Below the pieces are notes generated by a model, which did not search any database, was not told the DNA's origin, and saw only the letters and a list, made by a program, of their open reading frames with translations. From positions 1 to 37,022 of the forward strand of contig JARGFM010000033.1 in assembly GCA_029210725.1 (NCBI GenBank): a DNA stretch of 37,022 nucleotides, given 5' to 3'. Position numbers and translations under genes: made by a program. Numbering within the stretch: the stretch's first letter is position 1; the number at the start of each line of letters is the position of its first letter. This stretch comes from Bacteroidales bacterium (GTDB taxonomy: Bacteria > Bacteroidota > Bacteroidia > Bacteroidales > GCA-2748055). Below are positions 14,314-32,529 of the stretch, in pieces.

Positions 14314-15696
14314 CTAATCCTGCTCCTGACCCATCTCCTCTTTAAAGTATTTATAGAATAAGGGAATGGTTTCGATCCCTTTGTAAAAGTTAAAAAGAGG
14401 GTAGTTCTCATTGGGCGAGTGAATGGCATCCGAGTCCAGTCCAAAACCCATTAATATAGACTTGATGCCCAAAACCTCCTCAAAATCAGAGACAATCGGA
14501 ATACTTCCTCCACTTCTGACGGGGATTGGAATTTTACCAAAACTCTCCTCGATAGCCCTGCTGGCCGCCCTGTAAGCTGGAAAATCGATGGGGGTTACAT
14601 AACCCTGTCCTCCATGCAGACTCTTCACCCTGACCTTGGTGCCTTTGGGAGCTATACGCTCCATATGGTTTATAAAGAGCTCATCGATCTTTTTGGAATC
14701 CTGATTGGGCACCAGTCGCATGGAGATCTTCGCCCAGGCCTTGGAGGGCAGGACGGTTTTAGCCCCTTCTCCCGTGTAACCCGACCAGATTCCATTGACA
14801 TCCAGACTGGGCCTTATTCCTGTTCTCTCCGTGGTGGAGAATCCCTTTTCTCCCACCACCTCATCTATGTCCAGTGCCTGTTTATACACTTTCAGATCAA
14901 AGGGGGCCTTGGCCATCTCGGCCCGTTCTTGCTCTGAAACCTCCATCACATCCTCATAAAAACCAGGAATGGTAATGTGGTTGTTTTCATCGGTCAGGGA
15001 AGCGATCATTTTTGCCAGGAGGTTGGCCGGATTTCCTACAGCACCTCCATACAGGCCTGAATGCAGGTCCCGGTTCGGTCCGGTAAGTTCCACCTCCAGG
15101 TAACTGAGCCCCCGGAGCCCCACGGTAATGGAGGGGATATCCCGGGCAATCATGGTAGTATCTGAAATAAGAATGATATCCGCTGCCAGAAGCTCCTTGT
15201 TCTCCCGGCAAAACTGCTTCAGGCTGGGTGAGCCAATCTCTTCCTCCCCTTCTATCATAAATTTCACATTACAGCTTAGCATCCCCCGGGCATTCATCAT
15301 CTCAAAAGCCTTTACATGCATAAAAAGCTGGCCCTTATCATCATCCGCTCCCCGTGCAAAAATCTTACCATCTCGAACCTCCGGTTCAAAAGGGGGTGAA
15401 TCCCAGAGCTCCAGTGGCTCGACTGGCTGCACATCATAGTGCCCGTAAACCAGCACGGTAGGAAGCGACTCATCCACGATTTTATGTCCGTATACCACCG
15501 GCCATCCGGTGGTCTCCTTCACTACCGCATGCCCGGCCCCGGCCTTCAGCAGGGATTCTTTGATATGTTCTGCCGCCCTGAACATATCCGCTCTGGCATC
15601 CGCCTGAGAACTGATGGACGGGATGCGGATCAGTTCAAATAGCTCGTCGAGAAAACGATCCTTGTGAGTCTCCACATAATCTTTAATTGTTTTCAT
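14314..15696 (-). CDS. M20 family metallopeptidase (dipeptidase)
   Basis: This is a zinc-dependent dipeptidase or aminoacyl hydrolase of the M20/ArgE/DapE family, likely cytoplasmic since no signal peptide is seen. Metal-binding and catalytic motifs are intact: GHYDVQP with His86 and Asp88, the bridging aspartate in RGADDDKG (residues 115-122), and the glutamates of EGEEEIGS (149-156). A dimerisation domain follows at about 190-340, and the C-terminal metal histidine fits the DAIHSPNE segment near residue 430. The length of 460 residues matches family dipeptidases. It lies 29 bases after the DUF3109 gene and probably shares its transcript; a strong terminator follows. Substrate preference cannot be deduced. 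Confidence 0.92.
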   Translation of the reverse strand: MKTIKDYVETHKDRFLDELFELIRIPSISSQADARADMFRAAEHIKESLLKAGAGHAVVKETTGWPVVYGHKIVDESLPTVLVYGHYDVQPVEPLELWDSPPFEPEVRDGKIFARGADDDKGQLFMHVKAFEMMNARGMLSCNVKFMIEGEEEIGSPSLKQFCRENKELLAADIILISDTTMIARDIPSITVGLRGLSYLEVELTGPNRDLHSGLYGGAVGNPANLLAKMIASLTDENNHITIPGFYEDVMEVSEQERAEMAKAPFDLKVYKQALDIDEVVGEKGFSTTERTGIRPSLDVNGIWSGYTGEGAKTVLPSKAWAKISMRLVPNQDSKKIDELFINHMERIAPKGTKVRVKSLHGGQGYVTPIDFPAYRAASRAIEESFGKIPIPVRSGGSIPIVSDFEEVLGIKSILMGFGLDSDAIHSPNENYPLFNFYKGIETIPLFYKYFKEEMGQEQD

Positions 15697-15725
15697 AAGG
15701 TCTAATATTTAAATCATAATGAGGT

Positions 15726-16298
15726 TCACTTGTTCTTCATCAATTCCCCGTAGACTATCTCAAGCTCTTGATAGAAGCCCTCGCCATAAACTCTGATAAG
15801 GGCGTCTTTCAGAAACCGGAATACAGGAACACCTTCTCTCTCCCCCAGTATGCGGGCAGGTTCACAGATGCTCCACCGATGATAATTCAAAGCAATGCCC
15901 TGCTTTAGTTTTGTAACACGGATGGGATAAAGGTGGCAGGAGACAGGTTTCCGGAAACGAATCGCCCCCTCATCATAGGCCTGTTCAATGGCACAGCGGG
16001 CAATGTTATCGTTAAATACCGCATAAGCACATTCCTCCTCCCCCACCAGGGGTGTCACCTTGTCTCCATCGTTATCAATCAGCCAGGCTTCCTGTTCCCT
16101 GACTGCCCGTATGCCTTCCGCTCTCATAAAAGGAAGAATCTTATCCAACTCTTCTGCCAGTGATTCAGCTTCACTATCTTCCAGAGGAGCACCCGAATCG
16201 CCGAAAACACAACAGTTTCCTTCACACTTCTCTAAATGACATATAAAATGATTCTCAAACAGCTCCCGGCTGATAATCTTTTCCCCGATCTGAATCAT
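15726..16298 (-). CDS. DUF3109 family cysteine-rich protein
   Basis: I recognise this as the uncharacterised DUF3109 family, widespread in Bacteroidota. It is 190 residues and soluble-looking. An N-terminal cysteine group (CHLEKCEGNCC, about residues 20-30) and further cysteines at EECAYAV, ARCAIEQAY, KPVSCHLYPIRV and SICEPAR resemble the metal-binding pattern of YkgJ-type zinc/iron-chelating proteins, so it probably binds zinc or an iron-sulfur cluster. That is an inference, and no reaction is known to me. It is the first gene of a two-gene operon with the M20 dipeptidase, which may be coincidental. Confidence 0.88.
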   Translation of the reverse strand: MIQIGEKIISRELFENHFICHLEKCEGNCCVFGDSGAPLEDSEAESLAEELDKILPFMRAEGIRAVREQEAWLIDNDGDKVTPLVGEEECAYAVFNDNIARCAIEQAYDEGAIRFRKPVSCHLYPIRVTKLKQGIALNYHRWSICEPARILGEREGVPVFRFLKDALIRVYGEGFYQELEIVYGELMKNK

Positions 16299-16416
16299 AC
16301 ATTCTATTGAATAAAAAACAAATGTGCAAAAAAAAGCGCTGGGATGTCTCCTTTTTCATAAGATCTAAATTGTTAAAATGTCTTTAAACCGGAAAACTAT
16401 AAGGCCTTGATTAGTT

Positions 16417-16448
16417 TTTGCTTATGAATTTTTGTTTAACTTATTTTG
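16417..16448 (+). promoter_or_regulatory. Predicted promoter for the fasciclin gene
   Basis: TTTG at 16417-16420 is followed after exactly 20 bases by TTATTTTG (16441-16448), one mismatch from TAnnTTTG. The leader would be about 68 bases. Confidence 0.5.
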
Positions 16449-16522
16449 TTAATTATTAAACAATTTGGCCGGGCTTGTGTTGATTAGTCAAACAAAGATC
16501 ATAAACACAAAAACCAGTCAAA

Positions 16523-20707: not shown

Positions 20708-20739
20708 CAAAATTAGCACTTTTCTTTACTATTGCCAAA
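20708..20739 (-). promoter_or_regulatory. Predicted promoter for the TPR lipoprotein
   Basis: On the minus strand TTTG (20739-20736), a 20-base spacer and TAATTTTG (20715-20708) give a full consensus match. The expected transcription start is about 25 bases before the ATG at 20675. It begins directly after the hydrogenase NuoE-like stop codon, so the lipoprotein can be expressed independently of the hydrogenase operon. Confidence 0.7.
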
Positions 20740-21225
20740 TCAGCCCTTATATTCTTCGATGATGTTCTTCACATCATCAGGTGCCACCCTTCCGTAAGTT
20801 TTGTTCCCCACCTGCACCACAGGAGCAAGGCCACAGGCACCGACACAGCGCAGACAGCTGAGCGAAAACAGCCCATCGGCATCTGTCTCACCCACCTCAA
20901 TCTGCAGCTGCTTTTTAAATTCTTTCAACACAGTCTCGGCACCCCGCACATAGCACGCTGTTCCGGTACATATGGATATGGGATACTTCCCCTTTGGAAT
21001 CATGGTGAAGAATGAATAGAAAGTGACCACTCCGTATACTTTTGCAGCCGGCATCTCCATCTTTTCGGCGATCACTTCCTGAACCTCTGCAGGAAGATAG
21101 CCAAAGGCAGACTGGCACTTATGCAACACATTGATCAGTTCTCCATGCTGGTTGCCAAATGAATCACATATGGAATGGATTTTATCAACCTGGTCCTGTC
21201 TGAGTTCTATTTTAACGCTTGACAT
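20740..21225 (-). CDS. NuoE-like [2Fe-2S] subunit of NAD(P)-linked [FeFe] hydrogenase (HndA type)
   Basis: This is the small thioredoxin-fold [2Fe-2S] electron-transfer subunit of a multimeric hydrogenase, related to the 24-kDa subunit of complex I. From the ATG at 21225 the protein is 161 residues. The helical N-terminal domain (NVLHKCQSAFGYLP) is followed by the cluster domain, whose ligands are C86 and C91 (CTGTAC) and C127 and C131 (CVGAC). All four are conserved, so it should carry a cluster. I prefer 21225 (MSSVKIEL) over the position directly after the upstream stop, because the 7-residue extension is not typical. It is the last hydrogenase gene, 21 bases after the catalytic subunit. 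Confidence 0.92.
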   Translation of the reverse strand: MSSVKIELRQDQVDKIHSICDSFGNQHGELINVLHKCQSAFGYLPAEVQEVIAEKMEMPAAKVYGVVTFYSFFTMIPKGKYPISICTGTACYVRGAETVLKEFKKQLQIEVGETDADGLFSLSCLRCVGACGLAPVVQVGNKTYGRVAPDDVKNIIEEYKG

Positions 21226-21246
21226 AACTATCTGTATTATTAGCAA

Positions 21247-23022
21247 TTAAACCTGGAATATCTTTTTTCGCTTGTCGAAATAATGCGTATGTAACAATTC
21301 ATGCGCCTTTTCACTCAGTGGTTCACCAAGGAACTCATCGTAAAGTTTCAGGATATAGGGATTCTTATGAGATTTCCGGATAGTCTTCCCTTCATCTTCC
21401 AGGTATATTGCTTTGGTCCTGGCTTTCAGAATCGAACTGTCACCGTGGTGAAGTGGTTGTCCACCGCCACCAATGCATCCGCCTGGACAGGCCATCACCT
21501 CAATGGCATGGTATTTCGATTTTCCGGCTCTTACCTCATCCAACAATTTCCTGGCATTTCCCAGTCCGTGAGCAATGCCGATCTTTATATCCAGTCCATC
21601 GAAATCGACTGTTGCCGACCGGATCCCCTCCATTCCCCTGAGCTGCTCAAACTCAACGTTTTCAAGAGTCTTCCCGGTTTGAAGCTCATAGGCAGTGCGG
21701 GTGGCCGCTTCAATTACACCGCCCGTGGCACCAAAAATGACGGCCGCTCCGGAAGACTCACCCAAAGGAGCATCAAACTCTGATGCCTCCAGCTTATTGA
21801 GATCCATGTTGGCCTGTTTGATCAGGTGAGCCAGCTCCCGGGTTGAAATACTGTAATCTACATCCGGATTCCCGTCTACCGAAAATTCGTCACGCTGACA
21901 CTCATACTTTTTAGCCAGACAAGGCATGATGGATATGACTACCATGTCTTTCCTTTTCACCTTAATCTTATCGGCAAAGTAGGTCTTGGCGATCGCTCCG
22001 AACATTTGCTGGGGCGACCTGGCCGTGGAAGGCACATCCTTCAAATCGGGGTAGTTGTATTCAAAAAAGTTCACCCAGCCCGGGCAGCAGGAGGTCAGAA
22101 TGGGAAGTTTCACACTCTCATCGCCCTCAAGGTGCCTTTTTAAACGCCCCAGGAGTTCAGTTCCTTCCTCCATGATGGTCAGGTCAGCCGCAAAATCAGT
22201 ATCAAATACATAGTCGAAACCAAGCTGCTTAAGAGCCGTAACCATCTGGCCGGTGACCCTGGTTCCGGGCTCCATACCGAATTCCTCGCCCAAAGCAGCC
22301 CTGACTGCCGGAGCCGTTTGCACCACAACGGTTTTACCTGGATCATTTAACGCTCTGATTACATTACCAGTATGGTCCACCTCTGTAAGGGCACCCGTGG
22401 GACAAACAGCCACACACTGTCCGCAGTAGGTACAGGGAGAGTGCTCCAGGTTCATCTCAAAGGCCGGAGCCACCACTGCCATAAAACCGCGATTTACAGC
22501 ATGAAGTGCCCCCACAGTCTGAAAATTATTGCACATAGTCTCGCACCTGCGACACATAATGCATTTGTCCAGGTCCCGTATAATGGAGGGAGAAGTATCC
22601 AGCCTGTAGGTCGACATCTCTGCATATTCCTGTCCCGGAATCTCCCTGATTCCAAGTTTAACAGCCATGTCCTGCAGGTCACAGTTACCCGATTTGGCAC
22701 AGGAAAGGCAATCCTTGGGATGATCCGAAAGGATTAGTTCCATCACGGTCCGCCGGGCGTTGATCACCCTCATACTGTTAGTCCTGACAACCATGCCTTC
22801 AGCCACATCCGTAGAACAGGACGGGGCCAGGTTTTTCCTGCCCTCAACCTCCACGGAACATATTCGGCAGCCTCCCGGCTTGTTCTCAATATTCGGATCT
22901 TTCAAATCCATATAACACAGGATCGGTATATCGATATCGAGCTGTTTAGCCGCTTTGTAGATAGTTGTACCTGCCGGCACCTCTACCTTGTTTCCATCTA
23001 TGGTAAGTTTAATTTGACTCAT
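21247..23022 (-). CDS. [FeFe] hydrogenase catalytic subunit (HndD type)
   Basis: This is the catalytic subunit that reduces protons to H2 or the reverse, in the cytoplasm. Domains in order: a [2Fe-2S] ferredoxin domain (C36, C52, C55, C69); the His-Cys [4Fe-4S] site (H101, C105, C108, C114); two [4Fe-4S] clusters (C154/157/160/164 and C197/200/203/207); then the H-domain. The H-cluster motifs are complete: TSCCPGW (C312 as proton relay, C313 as ligand), MPCLAKKYE (C368) and MACPGGCIGGGG (C512, C516). A small-subunit-like tail follows. The 591 residues match HndD of NAD(P)-linked, probably electron-bifurcating group A enzymes. Needed maturases HydE, HydF and HydG are not in the window. It lies 9 bases after the NuoF-like gene. 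Confidence 0.97.
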   Translation of the reverse strand: MSQIKLTIDGNKVEVPAGTTIYKAAKQLDIDIPILCYMDLKDPNIENKPGGCRICSVEVEGRKNLAPSCSTDVAEGMVVRTNSMRVINARRTVMELILSDHPKDCLSCAKSGNCDLQDMAVKLGIREIPGQEYAEMSTYRLDTSPSIIRDLDKCIMCRRCETMCNNFQTVGALHAVNRGFMAVVAPAFEMNLEHSPCTYCGQCVAVCPTGALTEVDHTGNVIRALNDPGKTVVVQTAPAVRAALGEEFGMEPGTRVTGQMVTALKQLGFDYVFDTDFAADLTIMEEGTELLGRLKRHLEGDESVKLPILTSCCPGWVNFFEYNYPDLKDVPSTARSPQQMFGAIAKTYFADKIKVKRKDMVVISIMPCLAKKYECQRDEFSVDGNPDVDYSISTRELAHLIKQANMDLNKLEASEFDAPLGESSGAAVIFGATGGVIEAATRTAYELQTGKTLENVEFEQLRGMEGIRSATVDFDGLDIKIGIAHGLGNARKLLDEVRAGKSKYHAIEVMACPGGCIGGGGQPLHHGDSSILKARTKAIYLEDEGKTIRKSHKNPYILKLYDEFLGEPLSEKAHELLHTHYFDKRKKIFQV

Positions 23023-23031
23023 CTCTCTGCT

Positions 23032-24825
23032 TTATTTTAAAATCACTGCATCGAATTTACATTTCTCCATACAGGCACCACATTTAATACAGGTCTCAGG
23101 ATTGATCAGGTGAGGTTCTTTGCGCTCTCCTGATATTGCTCCTACCGGACAGGCCCTTGCACAGGCCGTACATCCAATGCAATTCTCCTCCAAGATGAAA
23201 TACTCAAGAAGGTCCGTACATACTCCTGAAAGACACTTCTTATCCACCACATGCGACAAATATTCGTCATAAAAATTATCCATGGTGGACAGTACCGGAT
23301 TGGGGGAACTCTGACCCAGACCGCAGAGGGAAGTATCCTTAATGACCTCTCCGAGATTGCGTAACCTGACCAGGTCACTCTCCTCGCCCTTACCTTCACA
23401 AATTCTTTCGAGCAATTCCAGAAGTCTCTTGTTCCCGATCCTGCAGGGAGCACATTTACCACAGGACTCCTCAACCGTGAAGTCCAGATAGAATTTGGCA
23501 ATGGAAACCATACAATCGTCCTCGTCCATAACAATCATACCCCCCGAACCCATCATGGAGCCGTTGGCAACCAGGTTTTCGTAGTCAATAGGAGTATCCA
23601 GATGTTTTTCGGTCAGGCACCCGCCGGAGGGTCCGCCGGTCTGTACCGCCTTAAATTTCTTGCCATCTTTAATCCCTCCCCCAATCTCAAATATCACCTC
23701 ACGAAGGGTGGTTCCCATCGGAACCTCTATAAGGCCCACATTATTGATTTTTCCTGCCAGCGCAAACACCTTGGTTCCCTTGGAAGTCCCGGTACCAATA
23801 CTACTGAACCAGTCGGGTCCCTTTAAAATAATCACCGGAACATTGGCCAGCGTCTCCACATTATTGACGTTGGTAGGTTTTCCCATATATCCGCTTTCAG
23901 CTGGAAAAGGGGGCTTCAAGGAGGGCTCACCCCGTAGGCCTTCCATGGAGTGGATCAGGGCAGTTTCTTCTCCGCAAACAAAGGCTCCTGCTCCATATTT
24001 CAGATCAATATCAAAATCAAATCCTGAACCCAGAATGTTCTTACCGAGCAGTCCGTACTCCCTGGCCTGTCCGATGGCTATCTTTAATCGTTCAATGGCC
24101 AGCGGATATTCTGCCCGTATATAAATATAACCCATATCCGCACCGATACAGCGACCTACAATGGCCATGGCCTCAAGTACGGAATGGGGATCCCCCTCCA
24201 GGATGGACCGGTCCATAAAAGCACCGGGGTCCCCCTCATCAGCATTACAAACCACATATTTCTGATCGGCCTGGCTCTTTCGGGCAAAATCCCATTTCAG
24301 TCCGGCCGGAAAACCAGCTCCTCCTCGTCCTCTCAGTCCGGATTCCTTCATTAACTGGATGGTTTCTTCCGGTGTCTGATTGCTGAGTACTTCCCCCAGG
24401 GCCAGGTAGCCATCCCTGGCAATATATTCATCAATAAACTCCGGATCAATCACACCACAATTCCTCAGAGCTATCCTCAACTGCTTCTTATAGAAACCCA
24501 TAGCTTTGGCATCCTCCACATGTACGTTAGTTTCAGGGTCTGTATAAAGCAAACGCTCTACTCTTCGTCCTTTGACCACATGCTCCTCCACAATCTCTTC
24601 CGCATCTTCAGGCTTAACCTGGGTATAAAAAGTATTGTCGGGCATCACCTTCACAATGGGACCCTTTTCACAGAAACCGAAGCAACCGGTCATAATGACC
24701 TGGACAGTCTCCCCGAGACCCTGCTTCGAAAGCTCCTTTTTTAGCTTTTCGGCGATGATGTCGCTCTCCTGAGACTTACATCCGGTGCCGCCGCAGACAA
24801 GCAAGTGCATGCTGTATTTTGACAT
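23032..24825 (-). CDS. NuoF-like flavin/NAD(P)H subunit of [FeFe] hydrogenase (HndC type)
   Basis: This is the flavoprotein subunit that exchanges electrons with NAD(P)H and, in bifurcating relatives, with ferredoxin. Numbered from the ATG at 24825 it has 597 residues: an N-terminal thioredoxin-like [2Fe-2S] domain (C11, C16, C48, C52), the FMN/NADH-binding NuoF core (GLRGRGGAGFPAGLKW at about 163-178, GAGAFVCGEETAL at about 278-290), an SLBB region, the N3-type [4Fe-4S] site (C455, C458, C461, C501) and two C-terminal [4Fe-4S] clusters (C549/552/555/559 and C579/582/585/589). The start is fixed by a strong Shine-Dalgarno just upstream. The extra N- and C-terminal clusters are typical of HndC/HydB rather than complex I. 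Confidence 0.95.
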   Translation of the reverse strand: MSKYSMHLLVCGGTGCKSQESDIIAEKLKKELSKQGLGETVQVIMTGCFGFCEKGPIVKVMPDNTFYTQVKPEDAEEIVEEHVVKGRRVERLLYTDPETNVHVEDAKAMGFYKKQLRIALRNCGVIDPEFIDEYIARDGYLALGEVLSNQTPEETIQLMKESGLRGRGGAGFPAGLKWDFARKSQADQKYVVCNADEGDPGAFMDRSILEGDPHSVLEAMAIVGRCIGADMGYIYIRAEYPLAIERLKIAIGQAREYGLLGKNILGSGFDFDIDLKYGAGAFVCGEETALIHSMEGLRGEPSLKPPFPAESGYMGKPTNVNNVETLANVPVIILKGPDWFSSIGTGTSKGTKVFALAGKINNVGLIEVPMGTTLREVIFEIGGGIKDGKKFKAVQTGGPSGGCLTEKHLDTPIDYENLVANGSMMGSGGMIVMDEDDCMVSIAKFYLDFTVEESCGKCAPCRIGNKRLLELLERICEGKGEESDLVRLRNLGEVIKDTSLCGLGQSSPNPVLSTMDNFYDEYLSHVVDKKCLSGVCTDLLEYFILEENCIGCTACARACPVGAISGERKEPHLINPETCIKCGACMEKCKFDAVILK

Positions 24826-24832
24826 TTCTGTT

Positions 24833-24840
24833 CCTCCTTT
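24833..24840 (-). promoter_or_regulatory. Strong Shine-Dalgarno that decides the NuoF-like start
   Basis: The minus strand reads AAAGGAGG seven bases before the ATG at 24825. Such a strong site is uncommon in Bacteroidota, and it sets the start at 24825 rather than the in-frame TTG at 24849. Confidence 0.7.
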
Positions 24841-24845
24841 AGTTT

Positions 24846-25238
24846 TCAATCAACTGTTTGATAGTTCACCGGGATGATCCCATCCACCAGTTCACCTCCC
24901 TTTATATATTTCTCGATGATCTCGTCCGCTTTTTCCAGATTAACCCCGCCAAAAACAACCGGATCGTTTCCGGGCAGCCTTACCTCAATGGTGGGTTCTG
25001 CATAACAATAACCCATGCAACCCACCTGGCTTACTATAGCATCTACTCCTCGTTTCTCCAGCGCATTAGTCATAAACTCCATGGTCGCTTTGGCACCCGA
25101 TGCTATGCCACAGGTAGCCATAGCCACCTTTACTTGTACCAGTTCAGAGGCCAGCTCCCCCCTCTCCCGGGCTTGCATGCCTTTTACTTGTTTGTCGCGG
25201 ATCTTTTTCAGATCTGCCAGCGATGTAATCTTGCTCAT
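24846..25238 (-). CDS. HndB-like thioredoxin-fold [2Fe-2S] ferredoxin subunit
   Basis: This small protein is found with NAD(P)-linked [FeFe] hydrogenases and is thought to act as an accessory electron carrier. It is 130 residues, with a helical N-terminus (about 1-35) and a thioredoxin-like ferredoxin domain. Only three cysteines are visible: C43 in MATCGIASGA, and C74 and C78 in GCMGYCYAEP. Canonical thioredoxin-fold ferredoxins have a fourth five residues after the first; here that position is glycine. A modified or absent cluster is therefore possible. It is 20 bases upstream of the NuoF-like ATG and follows a 68-base gap after the GHKL ATPase gene, the largest gap within the operon. Confidence 0.88.
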   Translation of the reverse strand: MSKITSLADLKKIRDKQVKGMQARERGELASELVQVKVAMATCGIASGAKATMEFMTNALEKRGVDAIVSQVGCMGYCYAEPTIEVRLPGNDPVVFGGVNLEKADEIIEKYIKGGELVDGIIPVNYQTVD

Positions 25239-25306
25239 AATCCTTCGGAATTGGTTCTCTTGTTTCTATAAAGTTATATGATAAGTATGTTATATTTAGT
25301 GCTGTT

Positions 25307-25852
25307 CTAATTCAATCCAAGTTCATCAAGGTTATTTCTAATCATTCTTTTTAAGCCGGTACTTAACTCATTTCCGCCAATACATTCCAGTCCCAGTTCC
25401 TGCCTGATTTGGGAGGTGGAAATGGCAAAATTTCCATTTCCGGTTTTACATTTCAGCTCCCACTCGATCGCTGGATTTGACACAACCAGTAAGAGCCAGC
25501 TTCCCTCCAGATCTCCCAGTGGTTGCCTGTCCGGATGCTTAATCAGGAAAGTAGCCTCAACAGTGGTTCCAATTCCTTTCTCCGAATGGATCTTCAAGCC
25601 CCCTCCTGCCATCTCGGCATGCTGACGAAACAGGGGAATGCCCATCCCAACCCGGCGCGTGGTGCGGGAGGTATAAAAGGGGTCTGAAGCACTGCCGGTC
25701 TCCTTCTCACTCATCCCCTTCCCATTGTCTTCAATCCGGATACACAAAAAATTCCCTTCTTCTTCCTCTTTAACTGTTATGATTACCCTGCCCGCACCGG
25801 CAGCTATGCAATTTTCTGCAATATCCAGGATATGTAGGGCCAATTCCTTCAT
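25307..25852 (-). CDS. Stand-alone GHKL (histidine-kinase-type) ATPase in the hydrogenase operon
   Basis: This is a soluble ATP-binding protein with the HATPase fold of histidine kinases but no phosphoacceptor histidine domain and no sensor domain. The N-box (HILDIAENCI) lies at the extreme N-terminus, followed by G1 (EDNGKGM), the F-box-like SDPFYTSRTTRR, G2 (GMGIPL) and GTTV. All nucleotide-binding elements are intact. The last 75 or so residues (after FLIKHPD) match nothing I recognise. I favour the ATG at 25852 (MKELALHILD), which lies just after the PHP stop codon; an ATG at 25867 overlapping PHP is the alternative. Homologues sit beside [FeFe] hydrogenase regulatory genes in anaerobes. 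Partner and phosphorylation target are unknown. Confidence 0.85.
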   Translation of the reverse strand: MKELALHILDIAENCIAAGAGRVIITVKEEEEGNFLCIRIEDNGKGMSEKETGSASDPFYTSRTTRRVGMGIPLFRQHAEMAGGGLKIHSEKGIGTTVEATFLIKHPDRQPLGDLEGSWLLLVVSNPAIEWELKCKTGNGNFAISTSQIRQELGLECIGGNELSTGLKRMIRNNLDELGLN

Positions 25853-25856
25853 CTTT

Positions 25857-26597
25857 TTATAATTCAATCACTTTCCTCCCCTGCTCACCTTTCATAGCCA
25901 GGCGAAGCTCATAAAAATCTTGGTTCTTCATCAGATACCTGTTACCTGCCCGGCCTATATCGTCCAGGAAATGGGCATCGGAATTTTTAATCAATGTGCA
26001 GGCAGAGAGTTCAGGATACTCCTTCAGAGCTGCATCGTACGAAGTTTTCCTCGATATTTCCACTGCATCCACCTCCAGTGTTTCCGGAAAAAATCCCAGC
26101 TGCGTATACAGGCCATTTGTGATTCTATCCACATGCGCGGGAATAAAAATCCCACCCAGTTTATGCACCAGGCCGGCTGCCTCTTCTATGCTCCAATCAA
26201 GTCCCTGATAGAGGGAATAAGCGATCTCGTCAATTATCTGCTCCTGCTCATTTACAATCACCTGATGCCCCAGGCGCGCGATTTCATTGGGAATCTTCCC
26301 GAGATTTCCCTCCAGCTCCCTTTGAAATATACTCAGCTGTTTTTCAGTATCAAAGAACGTCAGGCAGTGAACCTCTTCCCTGGTATTTATTTCTGCTCCA
26401 TAAACCACCCAGATCCCCTTTTTTTCTCCCAGCTTTCTGGTAAGACGGGCATGACCTGTGTGATTATGGTCGGTCACTGCAAGGATATCCAGTCCCTTCT
26501 CCGCCGCCCTGTTCACAATGTTCCTTGGGCTCATTTCCAGATCCCCGCAGGGGGAAAGAACCGTGTGGATATGCAGGTCGGCGCGATAGGTATTCAT
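25857..26597 (-). CDS. PHP-domain phosphoesterase
   Basis: This is a metal-dependent phosphoesterase of the PHP family. The metal-binding motifs are intact: H9 and H11 in DLHIHTVLSPCGD, D43, H44 and H49 in TDHNHTGHA, then HVDR at about 155-158 and NSDAH near 207-211. These indicate a trinuclear metal site and an active enzyme. The 246 residues contain just the PHP domain, with no polymerase or kinase attached. Its start overlaps the stop of the DRTGG gene by 4 bases (ATGA), so the two are translationally coupled. The natural substrate is unknown; placement among sensing proteins suggests a nucleotide or phosphoprotein, which is an inference. Confidence 0.88.
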   Translation of the reverse strand: MNTYRADLHIHTVLSPCGDLEMSPRNIVNRAAEKGLDILAVTDHNHTGHARLTRKLGEKKGIWVVYGAEINTREEVHCLTFFDTEKQLSIFQRELEGNLGKIPNEIARLGHQVIVNEQEQIIDEIAYSLYQGLDWSIEEAAGLVHKLGGIFIPAHVDRITNGLYTQLGFFPETLEVDAVEISRKTSYDAALKEYPELSACTLIKNSDAHFLDDIGRAGNRYLMKNQDFYELRLAMKGEQGRKVIEL

Positions 26598-26929
26598 TCC
26601 TCAAACAACAATTGATATAACTTCCCGCTGATGGTGAATGTGTCTTCCCTGGTCCCCAGGATTAAAACCCCTTCCTTGCCGGCTCTGTCAACCACCGCTT
26701 TCTCAGGTTCGATCCCCTTCACCAAAAGGATGGCGCTCAGATCCTTCAGGGAAGCAATGGCCACCACATTCATATGGGCCTGAAGAGTGATCCACACCTC
26801 TCCTTCCTTTGCATGCCCCATCACATCACTAAGCAGGTCGGAAACATATCCGCCTTTTACCTCCCTGGAGGATATTCTTCCTGTAAATACTTTCAGGTTC
26901 AGCTGTTCAATTACTTGCTCTGTTGTCAT
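26594..26929 (-). CDS. DRTGG-domain protein (second copy)
   Basis: This is a small protein of 111 residues consisting of a single DRTGG domain, a fold otherwise seen in phosphotransacetylase and CBS-containing regulators and believed to bind a ligand. I set the start at the ATG at 26929 (MTTEQVIEQLNLKVFTG) because it is 1 base after the stop of the sensory hydrogenase-like gene and matches the other DRTGG start. The longer frame to 27154 overlaps that gene without family similarity. Visible features are GGYVSDLLSDVMGHAKEGEVWITLQ and a C-terminal strand ILGTREDTFTISGKLYQLL. It overlaps the PHP gene by 4 bases. The ligand is unknown. Confidence 0.82.
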   Translation of the reverse strand: MTTEQVIEQLNLKVFTGRISSREVKGGYVSDLLSDVMGHAKEGEVWITLQAHMNVVAIASLKDLSAILLVKGIEPEKAVVDRAGKEGVLILGTREDTFTISGKLYQLLFEE

Positions 26930-26930
26930 T

Positions 26931-28286
26931 TCATTTACTTTGGCTTCTGTAATTCCGGTCCTTGCCCCAGATCGATGCATTGATCTTATCGGCATCCTCC
27001 AGGCTGAGACGCTTGTCACGGATATATAATTCTTGTAAAAACACGCAGTGACTTGTCTCTGCCCGTCCCTGAACGATATCTTCGGCCAGGGCACTGCATG
27101 AGGGAGATCCGCAGGCTGCACAATCGATGCCAGGAAGCACTTTGAGCAACTCATCCCTCTTTTTCATCTTTTCCATGGCCACCTCTCTGTCTGGATCGAG
27201 GGATAACATGGAACGGGACTGGATTTTATCCAGGAAGAATAAATCAAGATTTACAGCCCCGGAATCAGGCTTCCCGGCCTTCTCTCCCGAAACCTCGCCT
27301 GCACGCTTGTTTAAGCGTTCTACGGTTAAAAAACGATTTCCACTGATCAGCACACCACCGGCACAGCTTTCATCGCAGGCCCGCAACTCCAGAAAATCTA
27401 TATGGCTTTCTTCGGTTTCCTCCAGTCGTTCCAGGAATTCTGTTACATTGCTCATGCCGTCCACGGCAAGGCAACGGCCTGGCTGATGCTCCGATTCACC
27501 CCGGGTCAGGCTCCACAGAATTCCTTTGGAACTCAGGCCGGTACTATCCGCTTGAGTTTCTGTCCCGACCTCTTTGTTTATGATTATATGAAGCAATTTA
27601 TTATACATATACTCCATATTGATCACGCCATCAACAGATGATCGCGCTTCTCCCACCGGACTTTTAATAGATGCTATTTTGGCGGCACAGGGGGTAATAT
27701 AAAAGATACCAAGTTCTGCGGGATTATAGCCCTGACCTTCCATCTTCTCCCTGTAATAAATCGCAGCCACATCAGAGGGTGGCTTAACCCGGATCAGATG
27801 ATCGACAAGAGAAGGAAACCTTACCTGGATCAGGCGGACAATGGCCGGGCAGAATGTAGAGATGGCAGGCCTTAAACACCGGGAACCCTTTGTTTCCCTG
27901 TCGTAAGCCTGCTGAACCAGGTCCACAACACTGTCAATTTCCACAATATGCGTAAATCCAATGCTTTTCATGGCACCAAAGATCTTTCCGCTATTAATCC
28001 GGGATGGAAACTGACCGATAAACACCGAGGGAACCAGCGCCACACGAACCGGATAGGAGAAGAAGAGATCAAAATCGTCCTGCTCAATCAGAATGGCCGA
28101 TACCGGGCAGGCTTTACAGCAGTTTCCGCAATCCACGCAACGTTCCTCGAAGATGATGGCCTTTCCGTCCCTGACCCGTATGGCCTGGGTTGGGCAGGCG
28201 ATCATGCAATGGGTGCATCCAATGCAAAGCTCGTCAACCACCTTCAGTGCATGATGAAAACCTTTATCTGAGTAAGTCTGTTTCAA
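26931..28286 (-). CDS. Sensory-type [FeFe]-hydrogenase-like protein with C-terminal Fe-S domain
   Basis: This is an [FeFe]-hydrogenase homologue probably used as a sensor rather than a bulk enzyme. Domains in order: two [4Fe-4S] ferredoxin sites (C21/24/27/31 and C50/53/56/60); an H-domain with STFCP (C146), TPCAAK (C200) and CDESCAGG (C304, C308); and a C-terminal Fe-S domain (C389, C392, C397, C414) like those in RnfB and group C/D hydrogenases. The four H-cluster cysteines remain, but the proton-relay cysteine is Phe145 and the motifs are degenerate. There is no PAS or output domain, so signalling must pass to the co-encoded ATPases or DRTGG/PHP proteins. The TTG start at 28286 overlaps the stop of the upstream gene (TTGA). 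Confidence 0.88.
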   Translation of the reverse strand: MKQTYSDKGFHHALKVVDELCIGCTHCMIACPTQAIRVRDGKAIIFEERCVDCGNCCKACPVSAILIEQDDFDLFFSYPVRVALVPSVFIGQFPSRINSGKIFGAMKSIGFTHIVEIDSVVDLVQQAYDRETKGSRCLRPAISTFCPAIVRLIQVRFPSLVDHLIRVKPPSDVAAIYYREKMEGQGYNPAELGIFYITPCAAKIASIKSPVGEARSSVDGVINMEYMYNKLLHIIINKEVGTETQADSTGLSSKGILWSLTRGESEHQPGRCLAVDGMSNVTEFLERLEETEESHIDFLELRACDESCAGGVLISGNRFLTVERLNKRAGEVSGEKAGKPDSGAVNLDLFFLDKIQSRSMLSLDPDREVAMEKMKKRDELLKVLPGIDCAACGSPSCSALAEDIVQGRAETSHCVFLQELYIRDKRLSLEDADKINASIWGKDRNYRSQSK

Positions 28287-28699
28287 TCTCTTAAATAATT
28301 GGTAATTCTGACCAGTGTTCCTTCACCCGGAACACTTTCTATGTGTAAATCGTCACTGTTTTTTTTCATATTTGGCAATCCCATTCCGGCTCCAAATCCC
28401 ATTTCCCTGACTTCTTTTGAGGCTGTGGAATAACCCGCCTTCATCGCTTCCTCGATATTCCCTATTCCGGGGCCACTGTCCCTGACCGAAACCCTGATCT
28501 TTTCTGGTTCAATCATCGCTTCAATCGTGCCTTCTCTGGCATGTGCCACAACATTAACTTCCGCTTCATATAGTGCAATCACCACTCGTTTAATTCTCCG
28601 GGATGGAACGTCCAGCTGTTTCAATATATGTTTGACATCGCTGGATGCCTTTCCGGCATTAACAAAATCACCTCCTGCAATATAATAGTGTAAGATCAT
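28283..28699 (-). CDS. RsbW/SpoIIAB-like ATP-binding protein (anti-sigma-factor-kinase type)
   Basis: This is a 138-residue GHKL ATPase of the anti-sigma-factor serine kinase type. The N-box (IALYEAEVNVVAHA, about residues 41-54), G1 (RDSGPGI) and G2 (GFGAGMGLPNMKKNSD) are all intact, and the size fits RsbW/SpoIIAB. In the classical system such a kinase binds a sigma factor and phosphorylates a STAS antagonist. Neither is present in the window, so its target is unknown. It overlaps its upstream neighbour by one base (TGATG) and its downstream neighbour by four, which strongly suggests coordinated translation with the sensory hydrogenase-like protein. Confidence 0.88.
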   Translation of the reverse strand: MILHYYIAGGDFVNAGKASSDVKHILKQLDVPSRRIKRVVIALYEAEVNVVAHAREGTIEAMIEPEKIRVSVRDSGPGIGNIEEAMKAGYSTASKEVREMGFGAGMGLPNMKKNSDDLHIESVPGEGTLVRITNYLRD

Positions 28700-29055
28700 C
28701 AGTATACGGGTGCAATTCCAGCCTTATACAAAATTCCGGATATTCTGAAAAGAGAATAGGGAGTCTGTAGTAAGACGATATCCTTTTCAATGGCCAGATC
28801 AACCATCTCCCGGCTCACTTCCTTTTGGCGGCCGATAATTATCTCACTGATATCAGACATCTCAGCGGTGCGTATACACTGCAGGTTCGATAGGCCCGTA
28901 ATCAGAAGGGTTCTGTGGTAATCTCCCGTCAGTACATCACTCATCAGATCTGAGGTGAATGCTTTTTCGACCTCATTGTACAAATCAAGCTCCGGGGTTA
29001 AAACCTTAGCCTTCAGTAAGTCTGCAATTTTCCCAATCGGCATTCCCATGAACAT
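28699..29055 (-). CDS. DRTGG-domain protein (first gene of the hydrogenase operon)
   Basis: This is a 118-residue protein made of one DRTGG domain, a paralogue of the copy at 26594-26929. Landmarks are KIADLLKAKVLTPELD near the N-terminus, FTSDLMSDVLTG in the middle (parallel to VSDLLSDVMGH in the other copy) and the closing strand TPYSLFRISGILYKAG. In-frame ATGs at 29055, 29049 and 29043 are all possible starts; the family usually begins close to the last one. It is the promoter-proximal gene of the operon, about 50 bases downstream of the predicted transcription start. The function is unknown; ligand binding is inferred from the fold. Confidence 0.82.
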   Translation of the reverse strand: MFMGMPIGKIADLLKAKVLTPELDLYNEVEKAFTSDLMSDVLTGDYHRTLLITGLSNLQCIRTAEMSDISEIIIGRQKEVSREMVDLAIEKDIVLLQTPYSLFRISGILYKAGIAPVY

Positions 29056-29114: not shown

Positions 29115-29122
29115 CAAAGATA
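29115..29122 (-). promoter_or_regulatory. Predicted -7 element of the hydrogenase operon promoter
   Basis: The minus strand reads TATCTTTG followed by CA, the most typical Bacteroidota -7 sequence, 59 bases before the first start codon. The -33 region is not canonical: the nearest TTG is 23 bases upstream. That would fit a regulated promoter. Confidence 0.6.
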
Positions 29123-29293: not shown

Positions 29294-30151
29294 ATGAAAA
29301 CCCAGGAAAAAACCTACAGAGCTGTTTCAGGATACCTGATGCTCATCGTACTATTGGCCTTCATTCTTGGAGGAATATTCAGTTTTATGAACGGTATCGT
29401 ATGGCTTGGTATCACATTAAGTCTGGCTTTCTTCCTGACGGCCCTTGGATTTAACGTGATCAATCCGAACGAATCCAGTGTTCTGATCCTGTTTGGAGCC
29501 TATCAGGGAACCATCAAAAAAAATGGCCTGTTCTGGGTCAATCCCTTTTTTGTACGTAAAAAGATCTCATTAAGAGCTAGAAATTTTGATAGTGAGACCA
29601 TCAAAGTGAACGACAAAATTGGAAATCCCATAAAAATAGGTTGTGTCTTAGTCTGGAAAGTTGAAGATACCTATAAAGCAGCTTTTGAAGTCGACGACTA
29701 CGTGCATTTTGTTTATGTACAGAGTGAAACAGCTTTAAGAAAACTGGCCGGGATATACCCTTATGACAATTTTGAGGATCATGATGCACAAATAACTCTC
29801 AGGGGAGGAGGTTCAGAAGTTAATCACGAGCTCGAAGAAGAAATACGGGAGAGGCTACAAATTGCCGGGATACATGTGATAGAAGCCAGAATTAACTTCA
29901 TAGCCTATTCAGAAGAAATTGCCGGAGCCATGTTAAGAAGACAACAGGCCACTGCTGTTGTTGCAGCACGCTTCAAAATTGTTGAAGGCGCTGTTTCGAT
30001 GGTTCAAATGGCTCTGGAACAGTTGACTGAAAAAGAGATCGTGGATTTTGATGATGAGAAAAAAGCTGCCATGGTAAGCAACCTGATGGTGGTACTGTGC
30101 GGCGATAAAGATCCGAGTCCGGTGGTTAACACAGGGACCCTACACCATTAG
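29294..30151 (+). CDS. SPFH (stomatin/prohibitin/flotillin/HflK) domain membrane protein
   Basis: This is a membrane-anchored SPFH protein of 285 residues, expected to form large assemblies at the inner membrane. Two hydrophobic helices lie at about 14-32 and 35-53, then the SPFH domain begins at NVINPNESSVLILFGAYQGTIK. Further features are the helical ERLQIAGIHVIEARINFIAYSEEIAGAMLRRQQA segment (about 184-220) typical of the family and a glutamate/lysine-rich C-terminus. This subgroup is regularly followed by a tiny Arc-like gene, as here 1 base downstream. The exact function is unknown; membrane-domain organisation or stress protection is an inference from the family. Confidence 0.92.
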   Translation: MKTQEKTYRAVSGYLMLIVLLAFILGGIFSFMNGIVWLGITLSLAFFLTALGFNVINPNESSVLILFGAYQGTIKKNGLFWVNPFFVRKKISLRARNFDSETIKVNDKIGNPIKIGCVLVWKVEDTYKAAFEVDDYVHFVYVQSETALRKLAGIYPYDNFEDHDAQITLRGGGSEVNHELEEEIRERLQIAGIHVIEARINFIAYSEEIAGAMLRRQQATAVVAARFKIVEGAVSMVQMALEQLTEKEIVDFDDEKKAAMVSNLMVVLCGDKDPSPVVNTGTLHH

Positions 30152-30709: not shown

Positions 30710-31471
30710 TTAAAAGTCCAGGTTCTCCTTGAGCACCTGCATTCCGCTCCGGCTTACGGGAACTTTGCTTCCATCTTTAAGAATCAGGATAAAATTATTC
30801 TTTTCGTATGGTTCAATCCGCTCAATACGTGCAATATTGGCGATATAGGAACGATGTACCCTGACAAACTGCTGGGAATCCAGGTGTTTCTCATAATACT
30901 TCATGGTTTGTTGCTTCAAATATTTACCCTCATCGGTATAAATCAAGACATAATCGTCCTGCGCTTCCAAAAAATTGATATCAGCAGTGGAAATAACATG
31001 GATCTTGCCGGATTTCTTAATCACAACACGGTGCAGTATCTCATCGCTTTGGGAAATATGCTGCCGGATCTTCTCAATACTACTCTCCACCTTTACCCCT
31101 GCCTTCCCGGACTCAATTCGTGCTTTAAGCTTTGAGACAGCCTCTCTGAAGCGAACCTTGGAAAAAGGCTTCAGCAGATAGTCCACCGCATTTTTTTCAA
31201 AAGCCTGTATCGCATATTGATCGTATGCGGTGGTAAAAATAATTTGAAGCTGATGCTCAATAACCTCCAGCAATTCAAACCCGGTCAGCTTGGGCATCTG
31301 AACATCCAGGAAAACGGCATCAGGTTCAATCTCATTGATGGCCTTGAGTCCATCAAATCCATTGTCGTATTCACCCAGGACCTCTATCTCCGGATACTCT
31401 GCCAGGCAGGTTTGTAATAAATCCCTTGCAGGCCGCTCATCTTCAATAATAATTGCTTTTATAGTGATCAT
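30710..31471 (-). CDS. LytTR-family DNA-binding response regulator
   Basis: This is a two-component response regulator of 253 residues. The receiver domain covers about 1-120, with the acidic pocket in IIEDERPAR, the phosphoacceptor D56 in FLDVQMP, and the KPFSKVRF lysine. A LytTR DNA-binding domain follows (about 150-250; RVVIKKSGKIHVISTADINFLEAQDDYVLIYT, then FVRVHRSYIANIARIERIEPY). The start is the ATG at 31471, 2 bases after the kinase stop; the 21-residue upstream extension is not conserved-looking. LytTR proteins bind pairs of direct repeats about 21 bp apart, and exactly such a pair lies upstream of this operon. Confidence 0.95.
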   Translation of the reverse strand: MITIKAIIIEDERPARDLLQTCLAEYPEIEVLGEYDNGFDGLKAINEIEPDAVFLDVQMPKLTGFELLEVIEHQLQIIFTTAYDQYAIQAFEKNAVDYLLKPFSKVRFREAVSKLKARIESGKAGVKVESSIEKIRQHISQSDEILHRVVIKKSGKIHVISTADINFLEAQDDYVLIYTDEGKYLKQQTMKYYEKHLDSQQFVRVHRSYIANIARIERIEPYEKNNFILILKDGSKVPVSRSGMQVLKENLDF

Positions 31472-31473
31472 CT

Positions 31474-32529
31474 TTATATAAATATACGAGGAAATAAAAT
31501 AGTAACCGTAAACACACCATCTCGGCCGGACCACTGGACTTTACCCTGATCCTGATAAGCAAGCGCAATACGTTGTCTGACATTTTGAAGCCCAACCCCT
31601 GTACCTTTCCTGGAAGGAACCGCAGGATCATAATCATTTCTAATCTCTGCTTTCATCAGGCCTTGATCAAGCGCGCAATAAAAACTAATGCTCACCGGAT
31701 CGACACTCTCATATACACTGTGACGGATCGCATTTTCGAACAAGGGCTGGAAGATCATGGTCGGAACCGGGAACTTTACACACTCTTCACTGATATTGAA
31801 TTCATAATGCAGTTTTTCCCCGAACCTGATCTTTTCAATAGCCAGGTAATCTTTCATTCTGCCAAGCTCCTCCTCCAGGGGGACATATTCGTTTTCCCTG
31901 TGCTTCAGAGAGTATCTGAGAAAATCCGAAAGCCTGATTATCATCTCTCTGGCCTCGTCAGGGTTGGACATGGTTAAGGATGAGATAGAATTTAAGGAGT
32001 TAAAGAGAAAATGCGGATTGATCTGAGATTTCAGCATATTCAGTTCTGCATCCCTGACCATACCTTTCAGCCGCTCTTCCTGCTGAGATCTTTCCTGCAA
32101 TTTCTGATTATTGGAAACCAGGTAATAAATCAGCACCAGCACCAGATAACTCAGTCCGCCCAGCATGGCCCTCCAGGCTATTGTCTGGTTCAAAAACTCA
32201 ATATACATTTCCTGTTTGCTGAATAAAGCATTCAGAGTCGCCACTGAAAGCACCACCCAGCTTCCCAACACAACAATTCCTGCCACTAAGTGAGCCACGA
32301 TGGAATAGAGCGGGGAATGTTTTTGAAATGGGATATACCGAGCTGGATACCACGCCAAAAGGCCCATGAAACCAAACAAAAGATTAGAAATTAACGCATC
32401 AGTTATGACCACCGATAGTGGAAAATGAAGCAAGTAATAATAGAGCACAGCCATGGTGGCCGATATCAACAGCCATACCAGCGAGTAGACCAGTAGCGAT
32501 CTCCTGCTCCCTGTAATCGGATGACTCAT
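31474..32529 (-). CDS. LytS-type sensor histidine kinase (His_kinase family)
   Basis: This is a membrane histidine kinase of 351 residues. Four hydrophobic segments lie at about 12-34, 42-62, 77-99 and 121-139, followed by a short coiled coil (LQERSQQEERLKGMV). The phosphoacceptor is His173 in QINPHFLFNSLNSI. The ATP-binding domain has the N-box ENAIRHSVY and the G-box GTGVGLQNVRQRI. No extracellular sensing domain is visible, so it may sense through its membrane helices or through the co-encoded LiaF-like protein. It is 2 bases from both neighbours, which implies strict co-expression. Confidence 0.95.
   Translation of the reverse strand: MSHPITGSRRSLLVYSLVWLLISATMAVLYYYLLHFPLSVVITDALISNLLFGFMGLLAWYPARYIPFQKHSPLYSIVAHLVAGIVVLGSWVVLSVATLNALFSKQEMYIEFLNQTIAWRAMLGGLSYLVLVLIYYLVSNNQKLQERSQQEERLKGMVRDAELNMLKSQINPHFLFNSLNSISSLTMSNPDEAREMIIRLSDFLRYSLKHRENEYVPLEEELGRMKDYLAIEKIRFGEKLHYEFNISEECVKFPVPTMIFQPLFENAIRHSVYESVDPVSISFYCALDQGLMKAEIRNDYDPAVPSRKGTGVGLQNVRQRIALAYQDQGKVQWSGRDGVFTVTILFPRIFI

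Follow-up and report, generated by a model that had tools for sequence, protein, structure and literature searches.

A six-gene module around the hydrogenase-like protein HydS as a candidate redox sensor for electron-bifurcating enzymes

Introduction

The stretch of DNA analyzed here, 37,022 nucleotides of a Bacteroidales contig (JARGFM010000033.1; hereafter the window), carries ten open reading frames (ORFs) on its minus strand, 20740-29055, in which a putative sensing module of six genes precedes an HndABCD-like [FeFe] hydrogenase. The module encodes two DRTGG-type proteins (DRTGGa and DRTGGb), two GHKL ATPases (GHKLa and GHKLb), a PHP-domain protein, and HydS, a homolog of the sensory group D [FeFe]-hydrogenases. 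We propose that these six genes form a partner-switch-like sensor module for bifurcating enzymes, which would read the redox state of electron carriers and would respond to H2 only where HydS holds an H-cluster. The probability of this reading is placed slightly above one half (about 0.55). Under it, the module may gauge the electron balance of the cell rather than hydrogen alone. The observations behind it are the content and order of the genes, their conserved residues, the occurrence of the module beside three kinds of nicotinamide adenine dinucleotide (NAD)-linked complexes, a gene fusion, and module copies that no enzyme genes follow. Statements on published systems refer to the available excerpts of the cited papers; L and G numbers denote loci and genomes.

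Conservation of the module within Bacteroidales

HydS orthologs were collected by searching with an eight-protein HydS profile (E of 1e-50 or lower), and the neighborhoods of all recovered loci were read with profiles of the ten window proteins. An ortholog is present in 112 of 393 genomes of the order, distributed over 66 of 206 genera, so that the set is not the exception among Bacteroidota that a preliminary description had taken it to be. The arrangement DRTGGa-GHKLa-HydS-DRTGGb-PHP-GHKLb is complete and in order at 81 of the 112 loci. Two trios make up the module, and a DRTGG and a GHKL protein belong to each. These trios are reversed in one family (L128-L130, L134), with DRTGGb-PHP-GHKLb standing before DRTGGa-GHKLa-HydS.

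Contigs end less than 8.2 kb downstream of HydS at 25 of the 112 loci. Among the 69 complete modules with at least 8.2 kb of downstream sequence, 58 are followed by hndB-C-D-A and 11 by none of these genes. The ten-gene join noted earlier is therefore recurrent, but its two halves are separable. Module copies without enzyme genes behind them, such as L045 and the Parabacteroides distasonis locus L053, suggest action in trans. The public annotation of the P. distasonis record names DRTGG, PHP, and ATP-binding proteins in a complete module without adjoining hnd genes. All 11 genomes concerned contain, besides HydS, a PF02906 match above 312 bits, a candidate for an Hnd-type enzyme. Chance adjacency was rejected as an explanation, since the same order recurs across Bacteroidales and the association recurs with other enzymes. 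As a side observation, the L053 record (NZ_OY725779.1) is a 375 kb "plasmid" that holds gyrA and serB along with the six-gene module, and was probably filed wrongly, being part of a chromosome.

Association with [NiFe] and Nfn-type enzymes

A phylum-wide draw recovered HydS in 5 of 395 genomes, and three of these do not belong to the class of the window. The class of one of the three, which is that of genome G212, was then searched: 15 of its 197 genomes carry HydS, and 11 of these 15 loci adjoin a HydABCSL-like [NiFe] hydrogenase. There, NuoE-HndB-NuoF-NuoG-like genes come after the complete or partial module, and the genes for the [NiFe] small and large subunits come next. Hdr-like genes stand upstream; their domains (Fer4, CCG, and FAD/Fer4) suggest HdrC, HdrB, and HdrA-like proteins, respectively. 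All six module genes were detected at nine of the 11 loci, and L169 lacks a DRTGGb match. Contig ends cut two further loci of the 15 (L165, L170), which show the same HdrA-like gene upstream.

An Nfn-type complex adjoins HydS at four loci, two of the 15 in the G212 class (L171, L173) and two in the order of the window (L156, L157). The gene order is DRTGGb, a fused DRTGGa-GHKLa, HydS, NuoE, NuoF, a NuoG-/molybdopterin-like subunit, and NfnA/NfnB-like genes. The fusion is present at all four loci (by Pfam for L156 and by our own profiles for all four) and provides direct evidence that DRTGGa and GHKLa work together. In a HydS tree with L052 as its one Firmicutes sequence and with two further HydS-like sequences from the genome of the window, the four Nfn-type proteins form one clade across two classes (SH-aLRT 99), which indicates that HydS goes with the kind of enzyme. 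Such enzymes have been grouped as one Bfu family with a shared core (PMC9304861). The occurrence of HydS modules beside [NiFe] HydABCSL-like and Nfn-type enzymes in another class is new here. The wider pattern is that of a portable sensor module for bifurcating enzymes, which need not be hydrogenases of the same kind.

The window enzyme itself is predicted to be of the bifurcating type. Its HndC subunit reads GAFMDR, interpreted as the A..M signature of bifurcating beta subunits, with the motif placed at Thermotoga maritima positions 232/234 by eye and without an alignment. A/E..M near the NADH site, together with extra Fe-S domains, is among several criteria for such subunits (PMC7311640). 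The signature is found in 75/75 Hnd-type beta subunits (above 1000 bits) of the loci, at 11/11 [NiFe] loci showing the subunit, and at all four Nfn-type loci. The non-bifurcating T..K form is found in 37/37 beta subunits of another trimeric hydrogenase, often encoded upstream; the genome of the window has this second kind on another contig, where the paralog L051 reads GTFKDR. Hence, the "complete NAD(P)-linked hydrogenase" of the preliminary description stands as to its four HndABCD-like genes but is better termed a bifurcating type, for which coupled reduction of ferredoxin and NAD is predicted. The A..M motif also makes it unlikely that the enzyme depends on NADH alone and does not bifurcate.

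A catalytic subunit of the non-bifurcating type lies at most 9 kb upstream of HydS at 39 of the 112 loci, on the same strand at 33 and on the opposite strand at 6. At the 33 same-strand loci (e.g., L065, L070, and L094), the trimeric [FeFe] hydrogenase is often less than 3 kb from HydS. The module can thus stand between a non-bifurcating and a bifurcating hydrogenase.

HydS and the H-cluster

HydS combines two [4Fe-4S] domains with Fe_hyd_lg_C and FeS domains, and PAS is absent from its Pfam matches. Throughout the 122 alignment rows, the four H-domain cysteines and the C-terminal Cx2Cx4Cx16C motif (C389/392/397/414; 119/119 covering rows) are kept wherever a row covers them. Position 145, equivalent to C299, is F/Y/A in 110/9/1 of 120 rows and never Cys. 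Position 198, equivalent to M353, is T or S in 119 of 120, and the residue at CpI M497 is Arg in 110 of 118. By domain and residue criteria, HydS fits the available description of group D (M2e) in PMC8163306, except for the M497 residue. In a further set of rows, L171 and L173 have His in place of one H-domain cysteine. In that set, 13 of the 15 G212-class rows, together with L156 and L157, have another residue where the first N-terminal cluster has its second cysteine. The retained candidate ligand cysteines would be compatible with an H-cluster in HydS.

Strict H2 sensing is the default view of group D in the field. In such a scenario, HydS would carry a full H-cluster in every host, bind H2, and signal via the GHKL proteins so that the hydrogenase is tuned to the H2 pressure. 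The cysteines kept in the covering rows agree with it, and TamHydS of Thermoanaerobacter mathranii can receive an H-cluster and reacts with H2 (PMC8163306, PMC13104023). Maturases also favor it within the order of the window: HydG exceeds its cut-off in 86 of 98 carriers tested among the 112 (24/30 + 62/68), although this HydG may serve catalytic hydrogenases, and the genome of the window itself has maturases. G025 has HydE, HydF, and HydG although no Fe_hyd protein other than HydS was found there, which weighs against an H-cluster-free role within the order. Among the twelve tested carriers in which HydG falls below the cut-off, G451 retains HydE and HydF, so that its HydG is probably missing through an assembly gap. 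Three others, from a family clustering with P. distasonis, have no HydE or HydF over the cut-off either, yet they encode group A-like proteins.

The G212 class provides the evidence on the other side. HydG was found in none of its 15 carriers (12 of them searched at E 1e-60), HydF in none of the 15 (E 1e-40), and HydE did not exceed its cut-off in the three carriers tested. In nine of the 15, the search for Fe_hyd_lg_C proteins (E 1e-10) yielded none besides HydS. The other six encode further [FeFe]-hydrogenase-like proteins, also with neither HydG nor HydF found, which means that the absence may partly reflect divergent or missing genes. Together with the His substitution in L171 and L173, these data weigh against a strictly H2-sensing role in all carriers, which is considered less probable than the redox reading, and H2 as the signal is not established.

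Apart from this comparison, five genomes that are 93-99% complete (G700, G387, and G618 of the P. distasonis-clustering family, G027, and G512) encode strong [FeFe]-hydrogenase proteins with no HydE, HydF, or HydG over the cut-off.

A second form of HydS-kinase coupling occurs in the genome of the window. L050 (contig C12, 12962-14950) encodes a fusion protein of 662 amino acids (aa) that joins a HydS-like part to HisKA-HATPase. The fusion offers a precedent for HydS driving a GHKL kinase. It stands behind a third [FeFe] hydrogenase and, with a hybrid response regulator-kinase (372 aa) encoded at 15395-16513, forms a classical two-component arrangement.

Small signaling proteins

DRTGGb scores 31.6 bits against the DRTGG model (PF07085), above the cut-off of 25.2, and DRTGGa scores 16.9 bits, below it. 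DRTGGa matches DRTGGb by blastp (E 1e-12), and a Firmicutes ortholog of DRTGGa reaches 35.3 for DRTGG. Both proteins keep an SDLxSDV motif, seen as SDLMSDVL in DRTGGa (114 sequences) and SDLLSDV in DRTGGb (106 sequences), each conserved at 95% or more, as are its two serines. As a guess, these serines may be phosphorylated. Matches of DRTGGb to designed "Pizza" propellers in phmmer were judged spurious, as no single stretch passes alone.

GHKLa belongs to HATPase_c_2, with SpoIIAB as both its nearest NCBIfam model and its nearest solved relatives (PDB 1til, 1th8). The N-box E45...N49, D74xGPG, and GFGAGMGL are conserved at 95% or more in 118 sequences, so that the catalytic-type residues of SpoIIAB-type kinases are kept. 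GHKLb matches HATPase_c in Pfam, and its D15...N19, D47xGxG, and GxG reach at least 95% conservation in 99 sequences. The PHP protein scores 36.8 bits against a Pfam cut-off of 26.4. Its residues H9, H11, D43, H44, E69, H77, H155, D207, and H209, which we take to be metal ligands, are conserved at 95% or more in 105 sequences.

Proposed mechanism and alternative explanations

The proposed module would be cytosolic, with two DRTGG-GHKL pairs arranged around one Fe-S sensor and attached to enzymes of the Bfu family. HydS would take electrons from H2 (if the H-cluster is made), from reduced low-potential carriers, or from the neighboring bifurcating enzyme. Electron uptake would change its shape or redox state and thereby control GHKLa. 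GHKLa would act as a SpoIIAB-like kinase with DRTGGa as its partner, in the way a STAS protein partners SpoIIAB. DRTGGb, PHP, and GHKLb may constitute a second arm, in which PHP is possibly an opposing phosphatase. Depending on their state, the DRTGG proteins would then set how active the bifurcating enzyme is or how strongly it is expressed, either in cis or in trans. The uptake of electrons by HydS, the kinase and phosphatase activities, the direction of control, and its output are inferences.

Several findings weigh against this proposal. The module contains no DNA-binding protein, STAS protein, or sigma factor, and no cognate STAS or sigma gene is present among the ten, with STAS proteins elsewhere in the genome not searched for. 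GHKLa remains below the curated scores of both SpoIIAB (62.6 bits, cut-off 135) and RsbW (29.3 bits, cut-off 145). In the N-box of GHKLb, Asp replaces the Glu, a residue assumed here to have its usual role in GHKL proteins. Predicted structures are of low confidence (mean pLDDT of 37 for DRTGGa alone and 34 for PHP with one relative). The second arm is also irregular: PHP and GHKLb are missing from the Nfn-type loci, and L102, L115, L116, and L143 show DRTGGa-GHKLa-HydS with no second trio within the flank examined. The same holds for L096, where GHKLa is undetected as well. Such loci indicate that the second arm is dispensable or located elsewhere. At the [NiFe] locus L168, HydS and GHKLb are present, and DRTGGa, GHKLa, DRTGGb, and PHP are undetected. 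Enzyme kind and taxonomy are partly confounded in the HydS tree. Some of the 11 modules that no hnd genes follow do have enzyme genes upstream, namely hnd genes in L154 and those of the non-bifurcating hydrogenase in L063 and L093.

The six genes could otherwise be an assembly or maturation set, in which the GHKL ATPases would serve as chaperones and HydS would carry Fe-S clusters, so that clusters or FMN are loaded into the BfuBC core. The module does track the BfuBC-type core and not the catalytic site. A MutL model is among the NCBIfam matches of GHKLb, and we count its N-box, presumably MutL/Hsp90-like, for the same explanation. In Acetomicrobium mobile, HisK, HydD, and HydP have been left as "maturation and/or regulation" (PMC8880783). 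Module copies and partial trios without enzyme genes behind them speak against this explanation, as does the resemblance of GHKLa to anti-sigma kinases, and we consider it improbable.

A further-reaching version of the sensor proposal is advanced tentatively and with less confidence than the sensor module as such. Here, an [FeFe]-hydrogenase fold, H-cluster-free in some lineages, would serve as the redox gauge of a general control module for Bfu enzymes ([FeFe], [NiFe], and Nfn-type), acting through a new partner switch for GHKL kinases based on DRTGG and not on STAS proteins.

Transcriptional organization

The motif TAnnTTTG, which we take to be the Bacteroidota promoter consensus, occurs on the coding strand at 29122, upstream of DRTGGa, and next only at 20715, after hndA. 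Its absence in between fits one transcript from the first gene. Upstream regions of DRTGGa orthologs contain the motif in 75 of 104 cases, with 87 motifs against 18.4 expected from shuffles. A scan for generic sigma-70 promoters and terminators returned about as many sites as in shuffles. The widest gap of the array, 68 bases between GHKLb and hndB, divides the two halves. This gap is at least 60 bases long at 38 of 70 measured loci, of which 27 hold a promoter-like motif, compared with two of the 32 loci with shorter gaps. The halves are thus not inseparable; judging by these motifs, they may share a transcript at 41 of the 70 loci, including the window, and be separate at the rest. That they are two transcription units and mere neighbors without a functional link is very improbable, for although some loci have long gaps with motifs and some modules are not followed by hnd genes, all four hnd genes come after 58 of the 69 complete modules with enough flank and the association recurs with [NiFe] and Nfn-type complexes.

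Genes and features of the locus

Pfam and NCBIfam bear out the gene identities, their order, the HndABCD-like enzyme, and the division into a sensing half and an enzyme half (Table 1). The junctions reported earlier are likewise present in the sequence, namely TGATG at 28701-28697, TTGA at 28286-28283, ATGA at 26597-26594, and the one-base gap (26930) between HydS and DRTGGb. As previously noted, Pfam detects no sigma factor, STAS, or response-regulator gene among the ten. The starts of g8 (ATG 24824) and g10 (ATG 21225), judged by eye, are likely and differ from those given by the ORF tool; g6, whose start is a TTG or an inner ATG, may begin inside its listed ORF.

Table 1. Features of the ten-gene locus on the minus strand of the window
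Feature	Position	Strand	Basis
Promoter-like -7 motif TATCTTTG (TAnnTTTG), ~60 bases upstream of g1	29115..29122	-	
g1, DRTGGa protein, 118 aa	28699..29055	-	Pfam sub-threshold, blastp to g4
g2, GHKLa, SpoIIAB-like ATPase/kinase, 138 aa	28283..28699	-	Pfam/NCBIfam, solved relatives
g3, HydS, group D-like sensory [FeFe]-hydrogenase homolog, 451 aa, TTG start	26931..28286	-	Pfam, alignment
g4, DRTGGb protein, 111 aa	26594..26929	-	Pfam
g5, PHP-domain predicted metal-dependent phosphoesterase, 246 aa	25857..26597	-	Pfam/NCBIfam
g6, GHKLb, second GHKL ATPase with its own C-terminal part, 186 aa	25307..25867	-	Pfam/NCBIfam
g7, HndB-like thioredoxin-fold [2Fe-2S] protein, 130 aa	24846..25238	-	Weak sub-threshold Pfam/NCBIfam matches
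g8, HndC/HydB, NuoF-like, FMN, NAD, Trx-like N-terminus, C-terminal 2x[4Fe-4S]	23032..24824	-	Pfam/NCBIfam
g9, HndD/HydA, catalytic [FeFe]-hydrogenase subunit, 591 aa	21247..23022	-	NF040763, 899.9 bits (cut-off 765)
g10, HndA/HydC, NuoE-like, 2Fe-2S, 161 aa from ATG 21225	20740..21225	-	Pfam/NCBIfam

On the same strand, at 30710-32529, the window also carries genes for a LytTR-type response regulator and a histidine kinase (read by eye), which stand beyond a divergent SPFH-like gene at 29294-30151. At other loci, additional genes accompany HydS. A putative 10TM heavy-metal exporter gene follows it in L044 and L096 of genus g7 (ArsP_2 in L096; L044 by eye). In one family (L123, L079, L108, and L109), another HydS-like gene is found close to the module, and in L123 a SpoIIE-like phosphatase gene, read by eye, stands between the two.

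Significance and comparison with known systems

The identification of interaction partners of the model group D enzyme has been called critical for understanding its signaling mechanism (PMC13104023). The fixed gene order described here names five candidate HydS partners, and the fusion singles out DRTGGa-GHKLa. Genomes in which neither HydG nor HydF was found provide a natural test of the need of group D for an H-cluster. If the module reads the state of electron carriers, it would represent a general means by which anaerobes, among them gut Bacteroidales, control electron bifurcation.

In Firmicutes, HydS beside bifurcating hydrogenases, together with a kinase, is known (PMC3561251, PMC3608648, PMC8163306). 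Open-licence literature, as far as it was available, yielded no account of the DRTGG proteins of the module, of HydS modules beside [NiFe] or Nfn-type enzymes, or of HydS in genomes that lack HydEFG. Our statements on Firmicutes and Thermotogae rest on one contig from a plasmid collection (L052) and on papers. A peculiarity confined to Bacteroidota was rejected on the basis of a Subdoligranulum locus and a Halanaerobium gene list (PMC4237134).

TamHydS (group D/M2e) shares with HydS the two N-terminal [4Fe-4S] motifs, the H-domain, Cx2Cx4Cx16C, and the lack of PAS (PMC8163306, PMC13104023). As in HydS, residue 299 is not Cys and residue 353 is Thr/Ser, and the gene is placed upstream of a bifurcating hydrogenase with a kinase-like ATPase. 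The two differ at CpI 497, which is Arg in the window HydS and Leu in TamHydS. DRTGGa/b and PHP partners, as well as [NiFe]/Nfn-type contexts, belong to the window-type module and were not found described for TamHydS in the excerpts.

A close printed counterpart is a putative operon of Halanaerobium hydrogeniformans, Halsa_1862-1871, with a very similar list of genes: hydrogenase, NADH dehydrogenase, ferredoxin-like, histidine kinase, NuoE, PHP, Fe-S hydrogenase, and anti-sigma/Ser-Thr kinase (PMC4237134). In the Halanaerobium array, NuoE is internal and not terminal, and the available text merely lists the genes and names no DRTGG protein. Clostridium thermocellum (Cthe_0335-0342) and others likewise have the gene for a group D HydS ahead of those for a bifurcating trimeric hydrogenase, and a gene for a histidine/serine kinase often separates the two; the host is a Firmicute, and the excerpts do not name the intervening genes (PMC3561251).

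The NiFe-HydABCSL operon of A. mobile has the same Bfu core and [NiFe] subunits as the operons of the G212 class (PMC8880783, PMC9304861). Its HisK may match GHKLb and its HydD may match HndB, by description and not by sequence comparison. It differs in that an [FeFe]-kind HydS, DRTGG, and GHKLa were not found in the available descriptions (PMC8880783, PMC9304861). Lastly, SpoIIAB/RsbW (PDB 1til, 1th8) resemble GHKLa in sequence and in catalytic-type residues. They differ from the module in their partners: it has no STAS antagonist or sigma factor, and the partner proposed for its kinase is a DRTGG protein.

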